Origin: Euhalothece natronophila Z-M001
Lineage (GTDB): Bacteria; Cyanobacteriota; Cyanobacteriia; Cyanobacteriales; Rubidibacteraceae
Direction: 5' to 3'
Length of the DNA: 64,000 bases
Assembly (NCBI RefSeq): GCF_007904085.1
Contig: NZ_CP042326.1
Coordinates: 930,001-994,000 of the forward strand
The notes below the pieces were generated by a model. That model was not told where the DNA came from and did no database searches. It saw nothing but the letters and a program-made list of their open reading frames with translations. Shown piece by piece: positions 6,121 to 17,745 of this stretch (position 1 is its first letter; each line of letters begins with the position of its first letter). The position numbers and the translations under genes were made by a program.

Positions 6121-6744
6121 TTATTTTTGCGCTTGTACCACTTGTAAGCTACCGCCTGCATAGAGAGTTTGCTGACAATTTTTAAAGCCGATCGCGCTTA
6201 GTTTTTCCGGTACATTTGTCTTCACAAATTGCCAAGCAGTTTCCGTTTCAAATAAGGTCATAAATAGAGATAACCCAGGAACAAAAATTGGATTATGGGG
6301 CTGATGGAGATCAATGCAAGCAAACATTCCTTGAGGTTTGAGAACTCGATAAATTTCCTGTAAAATTTGATTTAATTGCTCTGGCTTCATTTCATGGAGG
6401 GCAACACTGGTTTGAACCAAATCAAAACTTGCCTCAGAAAAGGGTAATTCCTCGGCTAATCCTTCCACATAATTGGCTTGGGGAACTCGTTTTTTTGCCC
6501 GTTCTAATGCTAGCGGAGAAGCATCTAACCCTGTTACTTGATTCGAGTATTTGATTAAAAATTGGGTAGTTTGTCCTGCCCCACAACATAAGTCTAAAAT
6601 TTGGGTATTGTTATCAATATTAAGGTCTTTTAGGGCAAGTTGACGGAAACGGGCTTCTCCGCCTACTGCTAAAGCAGAGAGTTGCGCGATCGCGTCATAT
6701 AACCATTGATATTGATAACTCCATTTCCGTAAAATTGTTGCCAA
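6121..6744 (-). CDS. Class I SAM-dependent methyltransferase (UbiE/Methyltransf_11-like)
   Basis: 207 residues. SAM-binding motif I is LDLCCGAGQTTQFL (about residues 50-63), followed by VTGLDASPLAL for the acidic adenosine contact, LVQTSVALHEM as motif IV, and YRVLKPQGMF as the post-core motif. The spacing and the HEM motif resemble quinone/lipid C-methyltransferases, but the substrate cannot be assigned. It is a soluble protein of full domain length. It is followed on the same strand by the larger methyltransferase after about 150 bp. Confidence 0.85.
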   Translation of the reverse strand: MATILRKWSYQYQWLYDAIAQLSALAVGGEARFRQLALKDLNIDNNTQILDLCCGAGQTTQFLIKYSNQVTGLDASPLALERAKKRVPQANYVEGLAEELPFSEASFDLVQTSVALHEMKPEQLNQILQEIYRVLKPQGMFACIDLHQPHNPIFVPGLSLFMTLFETETAWQFVKTNVPEKLSAIGFKNCQQTLYAGGSLQVVQAQK

Positions 6745-6779
6745 AATTGATTCTCCTTAGTCTCGTTACTCGTTATTTG

Positions 6780-7466
6780 TTATTGGTTTGCTAAAGTCAA
6801 ATTCCAAAATACTTCTCGCATTTTTTCTTCTCCTTCCGTTGAAAGAACCATAATATTACTTAAAAGAGAACCAAATAACCGCCATCCCACTAAACTTAAA
6901 CTTGCATGTCGCGTTGCTAAAAGCAAATTCTCAAGTTTAATTTGTACTAAACCATCAAAATCTACAACATTAAACAGAACTTCCTCTGAATCCATGGACA
7001 GAGGAGGAAGATACATCTGTTTTGTGGAATTAAACTTCAATAAATTGCCCAAAATTTCCTTATATTTAGAAACGTTTTTTGTCACTGGCTTGACACATAA
7101 TAAAGTAGCATACTGTCGCCTCTCTGGAACTAAATCACAGGTAGAACTAGCAATGGCAAATTTATTTTGATGTCCCGTTAATCGCTCTCCCATTAAATAA
7201 GCCGCCTCTGTGCTAATGATGTCACCTTGCAACAGACTAAACTCATCTTCTTCAGAGCTAATTACTCCGCAATTCAGAGCATCTTGATACTCAATGGGAG
7301 TCCGCACCAGCGCCCCTTTTTTATTTAACACCCTTTGCCGATGTTTAGTCTTCCCAAGACTCTCAGCAAAACCGCGAATAACGCTCATTGCCTCCTGATT
7401 ATGGGATAAGTCGTGCAGGTCATGCTCCAAATTGGCAAGGGTTTTGAAATCTTCATCATCAATCAT
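6780..7466 (-). CDS. Uncharacterised protein (228 aa)
   Basis: I do not recognise the family. The protein has an acidic, helical N-terminus (DDEDFKTLANLEHDLHDLSH), a mixed central part with IASSTCDLVPERRQYATLLCVKPV, and a C-terminal LRL-rich helical part ending FWNLTLANQ. The central segment is hydrophobic beta-like rather than membrane-spanning. It sits 17 bp downstream of another unknown gene on the same strand, so the two are likely one operon, oriented away from the reverse transcriptase. This region lacks the HIP1 octamer. Real coding is supported by length, the tight operon spacing and absence of a credible competing frame. Confidence 0.7.
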   Translation of the reverse strand: MIDDEDFKTLANLEHDLHDLSHNQEAMSVIRGFAESLGKTKHRQRVLNKKGALVRTPIEYQDALNCGVISSEEDEFSLLQGDIISTEAAYLMGERLTGHQNKFAIASSTCDLVPERRQYATLLCVKPVTKNVSKYKEILGNLLKFNSTKQMYLPPLSMDSEEVLFNVVDFDGLVQIKLENLLLATRHASLSLVGWRLFGSLLSNIMVLSTEGEEKMREVFWNLTLANQ

Positions 7467-7483
7467 GAATCACCCTACCTATT

Positions 7484-7924
7484 TTAAACGGGACGTTCTA
7501 CAAGAGAAGGATCATCAATTATTTCATCATCATCTTCCAGTTCTGAATAAGAGTCTTCTAGCTGCGGATGATCGAAATCTTCGCGACTGGGAAGTGCTGA
7601 TAGATTACCCATCATTTTGACGGTTTGAATTAAAACTTGAACCGTTTCTGGGTCATTATGCTTTTGCACGGCACGGGCCGCAGTTAAAACTACACTTAGC
7701 CCTCCCTGTAACCGAGCGACATCACAAGCTAATCCATATAAGTTTTGGAAATCCTGCTCTGACATGATTCGGTAATCACCAGTTCCTGTTTTTAGGGTTG
7801 CGATCTTACCCTCTTTAACTGGCTCAAGCGCTTTGGCTCCTGCTTTGCGGAAATCTTCAAAGGATTTCCAATTTCGCGCCACTTTTAAGTTGGTTGCGGT
7901 TTGCTCTTGCTGCTCACCTAACAT
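7484..7924 (-). CDS. Uncharacterised protein (146 aa)
   Basis: Not recognised. The first 115 residues look like a compact alpha/beta domain (NWKSFEDFRKAG near residue 18; TGDYRIMSEQDFQNLYGLA near residue 48; QGGLSVVLTAARAVQ), and the tail is strongly acidic (SELEDDDEIIDD). There is no signal peptide or membrane helix. It is first in a probable two-gene operon with the 228-residue gene. It is separated from the divergent reverse transcriptase by about 340 bp that contains no gene. A role linked to the reverse transcriptase is possible only by position. Confidence 0.65.
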   Translation of the reverse strand: MLGEQQEQTATNLKVARNWKSFEDFRKAGAKALEPVKEGKIATLKTGTGDYRIMSEQDFQNLYGLACDVARLQGGLSVVLTAARAVQKHNDPETVQVLIQTVKMMGNLSALPSREDFDHPQLEDSYSELEDDDEIIDDPSLVERPV

Positions 7925-8263
7925 ATAGTCCCTCCTCTGGCTTTAAACCAACGAGTTTACAACGAATTTACAATGATTTTATTATATATCCTAACAGTAA
8001 TCTTTGGTGTGGCTGCGTTTTTTTCCTCAAAAAAGGACAAAACCATGTCCTTGCGGGTTGAGAAATTTCAAAGTAGAGGGAAAGATGCTTAACGTATTCG
8101 AGTCGGAATGTATCGGGTTTTATAGGAAATTCGCGATCGAGAACTGAGTATATTAATTTTTTTTAAAGTCGGTCATCGGCGAGAATTTTATCGTTTTTAG
8201 ACAGTGCGCTTAAAGTAGGTTTAAATTATACATAAGTTATACTACTTTAATTAATTTACCGAT
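7925..8263. other. Gene-free divergent intergenic region upstream of the reverse transcriptase
   Basis: AT-rich stretch of about 340 bp without a credible reading frame. It contains a perfect hairpin, AAGGACA (8033-8039) with TGTCCTT (8046-8052), and a TATACT hexamer at 8238-8243 that could be a -10 element for the reverse transcriptase, but no matching -35. Several defence reverse transcriptases template on an adjacent non-coding RNA, so this is the natural place to look for one. I see no proof of it. Confidence 0.4.
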
Positions 8264-9808
8264 ATGAAACTTGATAGAGATTCTATTGAATGGGCAATCG
8301 ATTCACTTGATAAACATGGGGACACCGATTTATTTCCAAAACCAGTAGAATTAAAAATTATTAAAGAGTTAGGAGACGATGCAATTGACTTTATAGCAGA
8401 TATTGATATCTCTAATCATGAGCCCGGTGCACCTCGTCGATTTATTGTTCCTAAAGATGATTTATCTGTTCGGCCTGCTACTCAACTTGACCCACTTGAT
8501 AGCATTATTTTTACTGCAATAATGTATCAATTTGGAAAAGGAATTGAAGATAGAAGGTCTCCAGTATATGATTCTAAAGTTTTTAGTTATAGATTCGATA
8601 CCTCAGCAAATGGCGATTTGTATAGTTCTAATGATGCTTGGAACGAGTTTTGGAATCAAAGTAGATACTTAGCATCTCAGTACAAGTATGCTCTTAGTGT
8701 TGATATTTCTGATTTTTACAATCAAATTTACCATCATACTGTTGAAAACGAACTTATTGCTGCAGGTTTTCCAAATCAAGTTAATAAGTGGGTTCAAAAC
8801 CTATTTCAAACCGTTTCATCCAAAGTTTCCCGAGGTGTTCCAGTTGGTCCTCATGCGTCACATTTAATTGCAGAATCTTCACTTATACCTATTGATAATA
8901 GTTTATCTACGAGAGGAATAAAGTATTGTAGATTTGTAGATGATTTCGTTGTATTTACTGACGACGAATCAGTAGCAAGAAAACATCTGTATGAGATAGC
9001 AGGGATTTTGGATAAACAACAGAGACTTCAATTACAGAAAAGTAAAACAAAAATTATTGCATCCTCTGATTTTATTAGATATGCAAGAGAAATGATTGAA
9101 GATCGACCTATTAATGACATTGAAAATCATATTCTCAGTATAATAAGAAGACATTCGAATGGAAATCCATATAAGAGTATTCTATTCAGTGAATTGTCAG
9201 ATGATGAGCTGAAAGAATTTAATAGTGAGGCAATTGAAAAAATTCTTTCAGATTATTTATCAAGTGACGAACCCGACTATATAAGATTAAGATGGTTTTT
9301 AAGAAGATTGACTCAAGTTGGTCATGAAGCAGCGGTAAATTTTTGTCTTGATAACTTTGAAGATATGATACCTGCAATAACTGAAATTGCAAGGTATTTC
9401 GTAGCAGTAAGCTCAAAAGAAGTACAATTAGATTGGAAAGACATCGGAGGAAAGTTATTAGAACTTCTGGAAAATGACGTTGTAAAGTCAAATGAATATT
9501 TTCAAATATCTATACTCTCATTATTTGGGAATGAACCTGAATTAAACCATATCGATAGATTAGTTGATATTTATAAAACTGCTTCTTCATTTTTAAAAAG
9601 AAAAATTATTATTGCTGCAGCAGAGAGTAAAAAGGGAGATTGGTTAAGAGAGTTGAAAGAAGATGCTCCTGCAATGGATCCTTGGCAAAAAAGGGCTTAT
9701 TTATTTGCAACCAACCAATTACAAGCTGAAGAGCGAAAATTTTTAATTAGACATATAACTGACCTAGATAATCCACTTGAAAAGTTAATTGCAGATTGGG
9801 TCAAGTAG
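8264..9808 (+). CDS. Reverse transcriptase, unknown-group/Abi-like (candidate defence RT)
   Basis: 514 residues. RT palm motifs are visible: ALSVDISDFYNQIYHH (motif A, first Asp near 147), SRGVPVGPHASHLIAE (motif B, about 189-203), and the catalytic box CRFVDDFVVF with FVDD at 224-227, followed by QLQKSKTKII (motif D-like). Upstream is FIVPKDDLSVRPATQLDPLDSII, which resembles the region before the fingers in Abi/UG RTs. There is no maturase X domain or HNH endonuclease, so it is not a group II intron RT, and no msr/msd-like structure is evident. The C-terminal ~220 residues are all-helical, resembling the alpha-repeat tail of the Abi/UG class. Codon use differs from the neighbours (AGA and ATA are frequent) and HIP1 is absent, suggesting transfer. 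Exact subgroup is not assignable by eye. Confidence 0.85.
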   Translation: MKLDRDSIEWAIDSLDKHGDTDLFPKPVELKIIKELGDDAIDFIADIDISNHEPGAPRRFIVPKDDLSVRPATQLDPLDSIIFTAIMYQFGKGIEDRRSPVYDSKVFSYRFDTSANGDLYSSNDAWNEFWNQSRYLASQYKYALSVDISDFYNQIYHHTVENELIAAGFPNQVNKWVQNLFQTVSSKVSRGVPVGPHASHLIAESSLIPIDNSLSTRGIKYCRFVDDFVVFTDDESVARKHLYEIAGILDKQQRLQLQKSKTKIIASSDFIRYAREMIEDRPINDIENHILSIIRRHSNGNPYKSILFSELSDDELKEFNSEAIEKILSDYLSSDEPDYIRLRWFLRRLTQVGHEAAVNFCLDNFEDMIPAITEIARYFVAVSSKEVQLDWKDIGGKLLELLENDVVKSNEYFQISILSLFGNEPELNHIDRLVDIYKTASSFLKRKIIIAAAESKKGDWLRELKEDAPAMDPWQKRAYLFATNQLQAEERKFLIRHITDLDNPLEKLIADWVK

Positions 9809-9894
9809 TATAACAAAGCAAATTAAGCGGACGCATTTGCTTTATTTATTAATAAAAAATGCTACTAAATATTATAACGAAAAACAACACTATA

Positions 9895-10521
9895 TTACTT
9901 TATTCCTGCCTTTTTCGGTGGAACTGTTAACTTAACTGACTCAATATTATGTAAATCATTAAACCAATTTTTTAGATGAGGATACTTATTTTTCCAATCT
10001 TCATTAAGTCGTAAATCATGATAGGCAAAAGAACAAAGTGCCGCAATATCAGCCATTGACCAAGTTTCGTTCCCTAATAAATATTTGGTTTGCTTTAGTT
10101 GTTCTTCAAAAACTGGGATAATACGGGAAATTTTTTCTTGTAATAAAGATTGATATCGCGTTACTTTACCTTGATTAAATAATCCTTGAATCCAAAGATC
10201 AATGACATGATCCCCTAAAGTATCTGCCATTTCTTCCCATTTGCGACAAGCAATTTTTTCCTGAAAGGTTTGCGGACACAAATGAGGATGAGGATATTTT
10301 TCTTCTAAATACTCAGCAATTAACGAGGAATCCCAAATTACTGTGCCATCTTCATCCACAAAAACTGGGACTTTCCCAATGGGAGAAATTTTCAAAAAAT
10401 ACTCTGGTTTGGCACTGAGTTCAATCGCTTCTAACTCATAATCAATCTTTTTTTCCATTAATAAAATACGGATTTTACGAGCGAAATTCGATTGGGGATG
10501 ATAATATAATTTACAAGTCAT
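9895..10521 (-). CDS. Glutathione S-transferase family protein
   Basis: 208 residues with the two-domain GST plan. The N-terminal thioredoxin-like half begins KLYYHPQSNFARKIRILLMEK, where Ser/Asn at the helix-1 tip would contact glutathione, followed by GKVPVFVDEDG (cis-Pro loop) and DSSLIAEYLEEKYP. The C-terminal helical half includes YLLGNETWSMADIAALC, the conserved N-capping box of helix 6. Expected to conjugate or reduce with glutathione in the cytosol; the substrate is unknown. The start overlaps the end of the upstream PLP-enzyme gene by 4 bp (ATGA), so the two are translationally coupled. Confidence 0.9.
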   Translation of the reverse strand: MTCKLYYHPQSNFARKIRILLMEKKIDYELEAIELSAKPEYFLKISPIGKVPVFVDEDGTVIWDSSLIAEYLEEKYPHPHLCPQTFQEKIACRKWEEMADTLGDHVIDLWIQGLFNQGKVTRYQSLLQEKISRIIPVFEEQLKQTKYLLGNETWSMADIAALCSFAYHDLRLNEDWKNKYPHLKNWFNDLHNIESVKLTVPPKKAGIK

Positions 10522-11762
10522 AAGTCTTCTAAGGCTTTAATAATCGCTTCAAGCGCGATCGCGCAATGAGTCCAATGGGTTCCCCCCTGACAGAATACAA
10601 TATAAGGCTCTCGCAGTGGCCCATCAGCAGATAACTCAGAGGTGCTACCATCAATAAACGTTCCGCCTGCCATTACTAACTCACTTTCATAACCCGGCAT
10701 TTCTGCAGGCACAGGGTCTAAATAAGACCCCACAGGAGACTGCTGTTGTAAAGCGCGACAGAACGCCAGTAGCTTTTCTTTACTTCCCAGTTTAATTCCT
10801 TGAATCACATCTCGCCGTGGTGTTTCTGGGAGTGGATTAACAGGATAGCCCAATTGCTGAAAGACATGGGCAATTAAATGCGTTCCCTTAATCGCTTCTC
10901 CCACCATTTGCGGGGCTAAAAATAAGCCTTGAAATAAGAGACGATTTTGGTCAAAGGTTGCTCCTCCCTCGCTACCAATGCCAGGGGCAGTTAAACGACA
11001 GCAAGCGGCTTCGACTAAATGTTTTCGTCCGGCGAGATACCCGCCAGCCGTAACAATGGTTCCCCCTGGATTTTTAATTAGAGAACCTGCAATTAAATCT
11101 GCGCCTACTGCAGGGGGTTCTTGGGTTTCTACAAATTCCCCATAACAGTTATCGACAAAACAAACTGTCTCAGGATTTTGTTGCTTAACAATGTGAATAA
11201 TCCGCTCAATATCAGCAATAGAAAGGCTTTCTCGCCAAGTATAACCACAGGAACGTTGAATGAAGACTAAGCGCGTTTTTGCGGTAACTGCGGTTTTTAA
11301 GCCTTCCCAATCTATGGTATTTTCACTGGTAAGGGGGAGCTCTCGATAATGAACGCCAAACTCTTTTAATGATCCGAGTGTGGATTCCCGTAACCCGATG
11401 ACTTCTTCTAAAGTGTCATAAGGTCGTCCTGCCACAGCTAACATTTCATCCCCAAGACGCAACACTCCAAATAAGGCACAAGTAATGGCATGAGTTCCTG
11501 AGACTAATTGCACTCGCACCGCTGCAGCCTCTGCGCCCATAATCTTGGCAAAAGCGCGATCGAGCGTTTCTCGACCTAAATCACCATGCCCATACCCACT
11601 GACACTGGCAAAATGTTGTACGCCTACCCGTTCTTGCCGAAATACCTCTAAAACTTTTTTTGCGTTATGCTTAACTAGCGTGTCAATTTTAGAAAATATT
11701 GGAAAGAGTGCAGTTTCTGCTTTTTCTAAGATGATTTGGCTGCTCATATTCTCCAGTTTCAC
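10518..11762 (-). CDS. PLP-dependent enzyme, methionine gamma-lyase-like / aluminium-resistance protein family
   Basis: 414 residues. Fold-type I PLP enzyme: FASVSGYGHGDLGRETLDRAF near the N-terminus, AVRVQLVSGTHAI for cofactor phosphate contacts, CFVDNCYGEFVE with the pyridine-nitrogen Asp, and AGSLIKNPGGTIVTAGGY containing the Schiff-base lysine. This pattern is the family named after a plant/bacterial aluminium-resistance protein, related to cystathionine gamma-synthase enzymes; the physiological reaction in cyanobacteria is not established. First gene of a two-gene operon with the GST, overlapping it by 4 bp. A sulphur-amino-acid or glutathione link between the two is inference. Confidence 0.88.
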   Translation of the reverse strand: MKLENMSSQIILEKAETALFPIFSKIDTLVKHNAKKVLEVFRQERVGVQHFASVSGYGHGDLGRETLDRAFAKIMGAEAAAVRVQLVSGTHAITCALFGVLRLGDEMLAVAGRPYDTLEEVIGLRESTLGSLKEFGVHYRELPLTSENTIDWEGLKTAVTAKTRLVFIQRSCGYTWRESLSIADIERIIHIVKQQNPETVCFVDNCYGEFVETQEPPAVGADLIAGSLIKNPGGTIVTAGGYLAGRKHLVEAACCRLTAPGIGSEGGATFDQNRLLFQGLFLAPQMVGEAIKGTHLIAHVFQQLGYPVNPLPETPRRDVIQGIKLGSKEKLLAFCRALQQQSPVGSYLDPVPAEMPGYESELVMAGGTFIDGSTSELSADGPLREPYIVFCQGGTHWTHCAIALEAIIKALEDL

Positions 11763-14812: not shown

Positions 14813-15313
14813 ATGACTAAGAAAAGTATTAGCATTCAAATTGATGCGGAAAAACGAGAGGCGTTTCAGCAAAAAGTTAAGGCTGATGGCTTATCTATGA
14901 GTGAGTTAATTAAGACTTGGATTGATGAATATCTTGCAGAAGAAACAGTTAAAAAGGATAATGATCAAGATAATCAAGATTTATGGGAACGCATTGAAAA
15001 TTTAGAAGCAGAAGTCAAATTATTATCAGATGATCAAAGCGTCAGCCAAGAAGAAAGTTCTGAGAATTTATATGCTTATATTCAATACTTAGAACAGCGC
15101 ATTGATACCTTAGAAACGGTGGTTATTACACCTTTACAAGATGAGTTTGATAATCTCAAGAAAACCAACGAGGCATTATTTAATCAAGTGCGAGGCGTAA
15201 CTGATCATTTAAATGATCTGCGTAAAGCCGTTGACTCAGTACAGCAAAAAAATCAGCAACAAATGGGAGAACTTGTTCAATATATTAAGCAACAGTTGAA
15301 GCAGCAAGAATGA
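14813..15313 (+). CDS. Ribbon-helix-helix plus coiled-coil protein
   Basis: 166 residues. Residues 1-45 ([34 protein letters not shown]) read as a ribbon-helix-helix/CopG-type DNA-binding unit: a short basic strand, then two helices. The rest (about 60-166) is heptad-rich coiled coil ([45 protein letters not shown]). The stop overlaps the start of the NERD-helicase gene by 4 bp (ATGA), so the two are translationally coupled and probably partners: a DNA-binding or oligomerising adaptor, or an autoregulator. It does not match any antitoxin I can name. Confidence 0.7.
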
Positions 15314-17745
15314 AGGCTCGTTTTATTGCAACAGAACCCTTAAAGCAAGCTGGAGTAACTGCGGAAAAGGAAGTTTGGGATCAGGTTCAAAAAGCATTTG
15401 CCGATCGCGCTTGCCTTGGTTACTGGCGTTATCCAATTTTCTCACAGGTGGGGAATTTTCGCAAAGAACCCGATATTTTACTGCTCGATCGCGCTTTCGG
15501 GATTATTATCATTGAGGTAAAAGCTCTTGTTATTAATCAAATTCAACAAATTACTGGCCATCTTTGGCAATATCAGAATTTTTATACTAGCAGTGGCAAC
15601 CCCTATCAACAAGCAGAAAATCAGCTTTCCTCTCTCTTATCTTACTGTCATCAAGAACCCGATTTAAAAGAACAAATTACCAGCCGAATTTTAGTTGCCC
15701 TTCCCAACATTACTCAAAAAGAGTGGGAAAATCGAGGCTTTCATCGTCTCCCTAGTAATCCCCCATTATTATTACAAAATAATCTTACCGCTTCCTCAGA
15801 TTTATTAACAACAATTGAAACGACAGTTCCTCTATATCAAGGTAATCATTTAAGCGAGAGACAATGGCAATTATTACTCTCGGTTATTAGTGGAACGCCG
15901 CTGCATCAAAAAACAACTTTTCCTGTTCTGTCTCCCCCAAAAACGCGCGGTAAAGTTTTACAAGAACTCTATCAACATATCTCAGAATTTGATCACCAAC
16001 AAGAAAAAATTGGTAAACAAATTCCCCCCGGTTGTCAACGGATTCGAGGAATTGCAGGCTCTGGCAAAACGGCCGTTTTATGTCAAAAAGCTGTACAAAT
16101 GCACCTAAAATATCCGCAATGGGATATCGCTTTGGTGTTTTTCTCTCGTAGTCTCTATCCCGTAATTATTCATTATGTCAGTCACTATTTAAATCGCTTT
16201 AGTGAAGAGAAAACCAAGTTTAATGCTAAAACGTCAAAATTACGGATTCTTCATGCGTGGGGGGCAAAAACACAGCCAGGGTTTTATCGCGTCGTTTCTG
16301 AAGCCGCAGGGATTTCTCCTCTTACCGTACAAGATATCCCAACGCCTCATCGTTACCAACCCCAAAGCGCGATCGCGCTAGCCTGTGATCATCTCTTAAC
16401 CCAAACCACTATTCCCCAAATTTTTGATGCAATTCTCATTGATGAAGGACAAGACTTATTAGTTGACGATAGCGTTAAGCGACACCACAAACAACCCTTT
16501 TACCAATTAGCCTACCAAGCCCTGCGTCCCGTTAATCCCACTCAACCGCAACAACGACGTTTAATTTGGACATATGACGAAGCCCAAAGTTTAGATCATC
16601 TCACCATTCCTACCCCTGGGGAAATTTTAGGGGATGAACTCGCCCATCTTCTCAGTAGCGAATACAGTGATGGCATTCAGAAAACTGAGATATTATCGCG
16701 CTGTTATCGCCTTCCTCATCCTATCATTACCCTTGCCCATGGGGTGGGAATGGGCTTATTAAGAAAAGAAGGCATGTTAACAGGGGTTACCCATCCTCAA
16801 GACTGGGAAGCGCTAGGCTATCAGGTAGAAGGCAACTTTCAACTGGGGGAAACCATAACCCTCAAACGCCCACTTGCTAACTCCCCACATCCTCTACCGC
16901 AATTATGGGAGGGAGAGATGATTCGCTTTCAAAGTTATGCAACCCGCCAAGAAGAATTAACCGCATTAGCCGAGCAAATTTTTACCAACCTGCGCCAAGA
17001 AGGATTACGCCCTAGTCGCAACATTCTAGTATTAGTGTTAGGAGAAAGCAGACGCTTAGAAACGACAGTTGCTCAATTTCTCTATCAGCAGGGGATTGAT
17101 ATTTATTTACCCAGTGCGCCTGATTGTAATATTTTTGAAACCCCTTCTGGGCAACGCAACCCCAATCAATTTTGGTGTGAAGGAGGAGTGACGATTTCTC
17201 GCATTCATCGGGCAAAAGGGCAAGAAGCGGATATGGTGTATATTATCGGGTTAGATCAGGTGGCGCAAGCAGAGGCTAATATTTATCTTCGTAATCAGCT
17301 ATTTACTGCCATTACTCGCACTCGCGCTTGGGTAACTCTTAGTGGGATTGGTAATTATCCCTTTTATGAAGAATTGCAGGAAGTTATAGCAAGTGGGGAT
17401 AGCTTTCGCTTTGTGTATCGTCAGCCACCGCAACGACAGATTCCTGTAACGCCCATAGGAGAATTTCTCATGCGCTATGAGGCAGGAGAACGGAATTTTC
17501 AAAACATCGAGTTATCAGGGGTAGTATTAAGCTATTTTGATCTCAAAGGCTGTAACTTTATTGGGGCAAACTTACAGGGGGCAAATTTGAGTCATGCTTG
17601 TTTAGAAGGGGCAAATTTAGTTATTGCCAACTTAGAAGGGGCAAATTTATCCCATGCCAATTTACGGAAAGCAAAGTTAATGGGTGCGAACTTAAAAAAT
17701 GCTTGCTTAGATGGTGCTGATCTTACCTACACTGATTTATATTAG
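15310..17745 (+). CDS. NERD nuclease - superfamily I helicase - pentapeptide repeat fusion (811 aa)
   Basis: Residues about 1-180: NERD domain with [21 protein letters not shown]-type core (E-P-D ... E-V-K, the PD-(D/E)XK-like catalytic set). Residues about 240-720: UvrD/Rep-like SF1 helicase with Walker [15 protein letters not shown], Walker [12 protein letters not shown], motif [19 protein letters not shown], motif [20 protein letters not shown] and motif [17 protein letters not shown]. Residues about 735-811: pentapeptide repeats ([30 protein letters not shown]). NERD-helicases are a known family thought to process nucleic acids, and some occur near defence genes; the C-terminal repeat is an unusual addition, and such repeats can mimic DNA shape. 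Coupled by a 4-bp overlap to the ribbon-helix-helix gene. The gene carries HIP1 sites, so it is not a very recent import. Confidence 0.85.

Follow-up and report, generated by a model that had tools for sequence, protein, structure and literature searches.

The stretch of DNA analysed here (the window, 64,000 nucleotides of Euhalothece natronophila Z-M001) carries a gene for a reverse transcriptase (RT) at positions 8264-9808, and the locus raises the question of which kind of RT this is and how it might act. A sequence-only reading had proposed a defence enzyme of the unknown-group (UG)/Abi type, with a compact RT core marked by the motifs SVDISDF, GVPVGP, and FVDD and an all-helical tail of about 220 residues. 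ORF analysis showed a forward-strand reading frame with an ATG start, encoding 514 amino acids without internal stops. The features of the locus are as follows.

7925..8263 (339 bp), + strand: AT-rich intergenic DNA, presumed promoter region; no Rfam match, promoter matches at chance level
8264..9808, + strand: solo Drt8/UG7 reverse transcriptase gene; PADLOC Drt8 match (534 bits), Pfam RVT_1 match, intact reading frame
8264..9076, + strand: RT core, palm and fingers, residues 1-271; residues 1-280 of the model can be aligned to RT cores
8696..8716, + strand: RT motif A, SVDISDF, residues 145-151, catalytic D147; D147, I148, and F151 unchanged across 80 relatives
8834..8851, + strand: RT motif B, GVPVGP, residues 191-196; all 80 relatives have G191 and G195
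8933..8944, + strand: RT motif C, FVDD, residues 224-227, catalytic D226 and D227; both invariant in 80 relatives
9077..9805, + strand: C-terminal HEAT-like (alphaRep-type) helical solenoid, residues 272-514; predicted, 16 helices, alphaRep/HEAT-like Foldseek matches
9170..9172, + strand: codon of Tyr303, candidate priming residue; 97% of 80 relatives have Tyr here, with or without a nuclease
9395..9397, + strand: codon of Tyr378, second candidate priming residue, solo-specific; Tyr in 90% of relatives

All three motifs quoted in the sequence-only reading were present at these residues. An initial exact-peptide scan of genome contigs for relatives found nothing, and an alignment-based scan of the contigs returned 203, of which 80 were retained for alignment. 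D147, G191, G195, D226, and D227 were identical across this alignment, and the active site of the window RT is intact.

Membership of the window RT in the Drt8 family, which we take to be UG7 from the order of the PADLOC model numbers, is near certain. The protein matched the PADLOC Drt8 profile end to end (534 bits, 1-490/493), and the runner-up PADLOC families were all UG RTs (UG21, 175 bits; UG23, 145 bits; UG20, 139 bits). RT_UG21, the nearest other UG profile, aligned over almost the full length but scored 359 bits below Drt8, and it is itself uncharacterised. The NCBIfam models for Drt4 and Drt5 gave weak matches far under their cut-offs. The scanned relatives likewise scored highest with Drt8. 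When Drt5, Drt6-like, and group II RTs of related genomes were included in a tree, the window RT fell within Drt8 and this placement was strongly supported. Its nearest supported group comprised locus L026 and a clade of 45 rows. The root of Drt8 itself is not settled because the outgroup branches are very long and support was of the SH-aLRT type only. The profile search and the tree, which had been recommended along with the original proposal, thus upheld the UG/Abi affinity and narrowed the group to UG7/Drt8.

The same data bear on whether the enzyme could be the RT of a group II intron, a retron, or a DGR. Its core aligned well with group II and DGR enzymes, as any RT core does, but the scores for group_II_RT_mat (TIGR04416, NCBIfam; 58 bits against a cut-off of 300) and retron_St85 (NF038233, NCBIfam; 42 bits against 235) were low. 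Pfam gave a match to RVT_1 and none to a maturase domain, no intron or retron RNA was found at the locus, and the tree separated the window RT from the group II RTs of its own genome. The profile scores and the tree refute this identity, which can for practical purposes be dismissed, in agreement with the earlier remark that intron maturase and retron features are missing.

The fold was then considered. An AlphaFold model computed with the 80 relatives reached a pLDDT of 95.3 and a pTM of 0.93, and the tail modelled alone (residues 272-514) formed 16 helices with a pLDDT of 94.6. The helical nature of the tail was therefore reproduced with high confidence, whereas its length, 243 residues, slightly exceeded the estimate of about 220. 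The best twelve Foldseek matches of the whole model were chains of DRT6, DRT4, UG15, Abi-P2, and AbiK. Full-length matches in VIA-align were limited to class-1 DRT/Abi enzymes, namely DRT6 (Z 22.5, 453 residues, 6-512), DRT4 (Z 19.6, 449 residues), AbiA (Z 18.4, 391 residues), UG15 (Z 17.6, 448 residues), AbiK (Z 17.2, 458 residues), and Abi-P2 (Z 16.9, 391 residues). Group II, DGR, retron, R2, and LINE enzymes, as well as DRT2 and DRT9, aligned mainly over the RT core. A profile of the 80 relatives run against the PDB found Abi-P2, DRT6, and UG15/DRT4 as best matches. For the tail alone, the best Foldseek matches were alphaRep/HEAT-like proteins with a weak E-value (~0.01), which speaks to the arrangement only, and VIA-align returned many unrelated solenoids with Z of ~12-13, a range for which the tool issues a warning, so that these matches show only the general arrangement. 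The alpha-repeat tail foreseen in the sequence-only reading was thus recovered as an all-helical solenoid in the model. In the model, the window RT thus joins an RT core to a HEAT-like solenoid at its C-terminus, and class-1 UG RTs are defined by this arrangement.

DRT6 (UG12) and DRT4 (UG15), the best full-length structural matches, share this plan of RT core plus helical tail and, like the window RT, are single-gene systems (PMC13213688), but they have only ~12-16% identity to it, and their PADLOC profiles scored it at 77 bits each, far under Drt8. AbiK, Abi-P2, and AbiA, with an RT-like lobe and a helical HEAT-like lobe, also aligned with it over the full length, at ~13-17% identity. Those class-1 members that have been studied synthesize DNA with no nucleic-acid template (PMC13174585). 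Such synthesis has been described for AbiK and Abi-P2 (PMC9508834) and, according to a summary in PMC13314766, for DRT4. By analogy with these enzymes and on the strength of the model, the window RT likely synthesizes DNA in the class-1 mode.

Class-2 systems work differently, in that DRT2, DRT9, and DRT10 carry ncRNAs (PMC12632851), and the 339-bp intergenic space upstream of the window RT would be large enough for one. Templating by an undetected ncRNA, e.g. in 7925-8263, is nevertheless very unlikely in our estimation. An Rfam scan of the locus gave no match, the full-length fold matched class 1 while DRT2 and DRT9 corresponded mainly in the core, and closely related solo RTs at different genomic places had no flanking DNA in common beyond 23-30 bp; the exception was L048 and L077, two very close relatives with 245 bp in common upstream. 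Clustering of 1,140 neighbouring ORFs did not reveal a recurrent operon partner of solo RTs; those neighbours that did repeat either belonged to broad families or were explained by vertical synteny in the alaS branch. The lack of common flanks, of an Rfam match, and of a widely recurrent neighbour favours a one-gene system that has no cis-encoded ncRNA, as far as the DNA itself can tell. In three proteobacterial loci only, belonging to different subclades, the solo Drt8 RT is followed downstream by a small gene on the opposite strand whose product has a HEPN-like RNNLFHG motif (L018:9620-10147, L039:7603-8163, and L041:8210-8686, all on the minus strand). This gene could be a partner that recurs or simply a neighbour within an island.

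In the window, the genes around the RT were housekeeping genes and did not form a defence island. Promoter and terminator scans around the gene stayed at chance level, and neither convincing flanking repeats marking insertion boundaries nor a tRNA near the gene were detected. Synteny with genus mates ended at ~10530, just past the GST gene downstream of the RT. The genes beyond were unrelated, and a clean empty site could therefore not be recovered. The opposite-strand pair of unknown genes mentioned in the sequence-only reading is real (6780-7466 and 7484-7924, both on the minus strand, without a Pfam, NCBIfam, or PADLOC match). It was kept together in three other cyanobacteria at 54-59% identity with no RT found beside it, and was for this reason rejected as a partner of the RT and regarded as a separate gene pair. 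Further downstream, a ribbon-helix-helix protein gene (14813-15313, + strand) directly precedes a gene for an 811-aa protein with NERD and UvrD-like helicase parts and C-terminal pentapeptide repeats (15310-17745, + strand). The latter matched the PADLOC helicase and NERD+UvrD models with 275 and 60 bits, and the two genes are possibly a separate defence or DNA-repair pair.

DRT8 has been described with a PD-(D/E)XK domain (PMC12596737). The PADLOC partner model for this nuclease, RTasPDDEXK, found no match beside the window RT or anywhere in its genome, nor in any of 32 genomes of its multi-phylum clade that carry solo relatives and were searched genome-wide, whereas the nuclease of a positive-control genome was recovered. 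In the distant relative G263, an RTasPDDEXK gene (186 bits) overlaps the end of the RT gene. Among the loci fetched by similarity, such a gene was otherwise present only in L105, L108-L112, and L115. A single branch with full support divided the tree into the nuclease-bearing RTs and 84 rows without nuclease. Because the fetched loci had been chosen by their likeness to the window RT, a profile survey of phyla was added. In the phylum of the window, Drt8 occurred in 5 of 386 genomes, one with nuclease and four solo; in the phylum of the Citrobacter locus it occurred in 4 of 398, with an adjacent nuclease in none. The nuclease type of DRT8 was found in 105 of 5,426 E. coli genomes. Three viral contigs (L109-L111, 5968-8333, + strand) carry a nuclease-bearing DRT8 directly after an integrase gene, and this is essentially the unit present in the 105 E. 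coli genomes.

Compared with the two-gene DRT8, which combines a UG7 RT with a PD-(D/E)XK nuclease, the window RT belongs to the same RT family, as its full-length Drt8 match indicates, but has no nuclease in its operon or genome, falls into a separate clade with 23-28% identity to nuclease-bearing members, and shares with the solo group alone a set of conserved tail residues: R347, R348, Q351, Y378, and G395 are well conserved among solo RTs, but most or all nuclease-bearing RTs carry other residues at these positions. The Drt8 profile scored the window RT (534 bits) about as highly as the nuclease-bearing L110 (552 bits) and L007 (509 bits), which suggests that both forms are part of the PADLOC seed set, and the original UG survey (Mestre et al. 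2022) may already have noted the solo form. What is new here is the missing nuclease partner and the position of the window RT within a large nuclease-free Drt8 lineage. One could also regard the gene as an incomplete DRT8 that uses a PD-(D/E)XK or other nuclease encoded elsewhere in the genome. The described association with such a domain and the NERD-helicase gene 5.5 kb away would fit this view. The absence of RTasPDDEXK from the genome and from all 32 solo-relative genomes, with the positive control found, and the division of solo and nuclease-bearing RTs into groups with different conserved tail residues make it highly unlikely. Since there is no nuclease partner, the solo RT probably acts by untemplated DNA alone.

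A protein-primed enzyme needs a suitable side chain. AbiK and Abi-P2 prime from N-terminal tyrosines (Tyr44 and Tyr61, respectively; PMC9508834), but the matching region of the window RT has no Tyr; none was found in its first 87 residues. Without a Tyr in this region, priming may differ in the window RT or be absent. An N-terminal priming Tyr in the fingers loop is not universal in class 1, as DRT3b primes from a tail Tyr, Y666 (PMC13174585). Because the AbiK-type N-terminal Tyr has no counterpart here, Y303 and Y378 appear to be the best priming candidates. At position 378, Leu, Ile, or Val replaced Tyr in all nuclease-bearing relatives.

The composition of the gene was foreign to the window. 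Its GC content was 32.8% (window, 40.5%) and its GC3 was the lowest among 61 window ORFs; AGA/AGG made up 79% of its Arg codons (window mean, 20%) and ATA 27% of its Ile codons (mean, 7%). These figures substantiated the AT richness and the excess of AGA and ATA over the neighbours noticed before. A stretch of ~3.9 kb without the HIP1 octamer had been noticed as well. The gap exists (6686-10555, 3,869 bp) and is the largest of the window, but with a mean HIP1 spacing of 1,494 bp a simple exponential estimate predicts ~3 gaps of at least 3,869 bp by chance among 39, so that it carries no weight, in line with the caution attached to it from the start.

The closest relative of the window RT was found in a planctomycete (55% identity), and the 45-row clade mixes Cyanobacteriota, Planctomycetota, Bacillota, Bacteroidota, Pseudomonadota, and one ANME-1 archaeon. 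The gene was not found in five genus mates. Foreign codon use, absence from these genus mates, and a gene tree spanning several phyla argue that the gene was acquired horizontally, apparently in recent times. Relatives adjoin Gabija (GajA, 998 bits; GajB, 787 bits), LmuB, HerA, and PDC-S46 genes, which is a description and not an enrichment; likewise, when 142 neighbours of solo RTs were scanned with PADLOC, defence-type matches came up, but each family was confined to at most two loci, and enrichment is not claimed. On an Aminobacter plasmid (L019:7998-11683, + strand), two tandem RT genes, one of them Drt8-type, follow a DUF87 ATPase gene, with an AbiE-type toxin-antitoxin pair further upstream. 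A decayed Drt8 gene of which the last ~115 residues are left was seen in L024:8568-8915 (G147), and in L056, L062, L083, and L102 the gene is split into two ORFs; such decay and splitting are typical of defence-gene turnover. In five cyanobacterial loci (L020, L030, L031, L032, and L071) the solo RT gene is fixed 85-158 bp after alaS, with shared downstream genes in several of them. This suggests that it is kept vertically in this lineage. A fixed site is less typical of mobile defence genes and counts against a reading as mobile defence.

The gene might be a passenger or have been taken over for a non-defence role without protection against phages. The housekeeping surroundings in the window and the alaS-linked cyanobacterial branch are compatible with this. 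We consider it unlikely in view of the intact and strictly conserved active site, a gene tree that crosses phyla, and the defence genes beside relatives.

The explanation that we regard as probable is a horizontally acquired single-gene class-1 DRT of the UG7/Drt8 family, which would make untemplated, probably protein-primed DNA and bring about abortive infection. For the primer, the trigger, and the effector step we infer the following course. The window RT would assemble via its tail into trimers or hexamers, and the growing strand would be held between the RT lobe and the solenoid. The tail would take the place of the template strand, allowing the active site to polymerise DNA without a nucleic-acid template. 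Synthesis would start on a side chain of the enzyme itself, with Y303 or Y378 as best candidates. By analogy with DRT4 and its ORF55, a phage product may activate the enzyme or stabilise its DNA. Accumulating single-stranded DNA would then stop growth of the infected cell, amounting to abortive infection, in an effector step that would need no nuclease.

We put forward more tentatively, as an idea with less than an even chance, that the nuclease-less Drt8 lineage as a whole is a separate, widespread one-gene defence system, primed from a tail Tyr (Y303 or the solo-specific Y378), with the DNA product as effector and the nuclease as a later addition in one branch. If this is true, the solo lineage works unlike the two-gene DRT8. 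Few named DRT types still lack an established mechanism, and DRT8 is one of them (PMC13213688, PMC13314766); the solo lineage could help to explain how it works. A large natural group of nuclease-free Drt8 enzymes makes the question of whether the nuclease is the effector directly testable against the two-gene form of E. coli. For cyanobacteria, the window RT adds a DRT to the defence repertoires.
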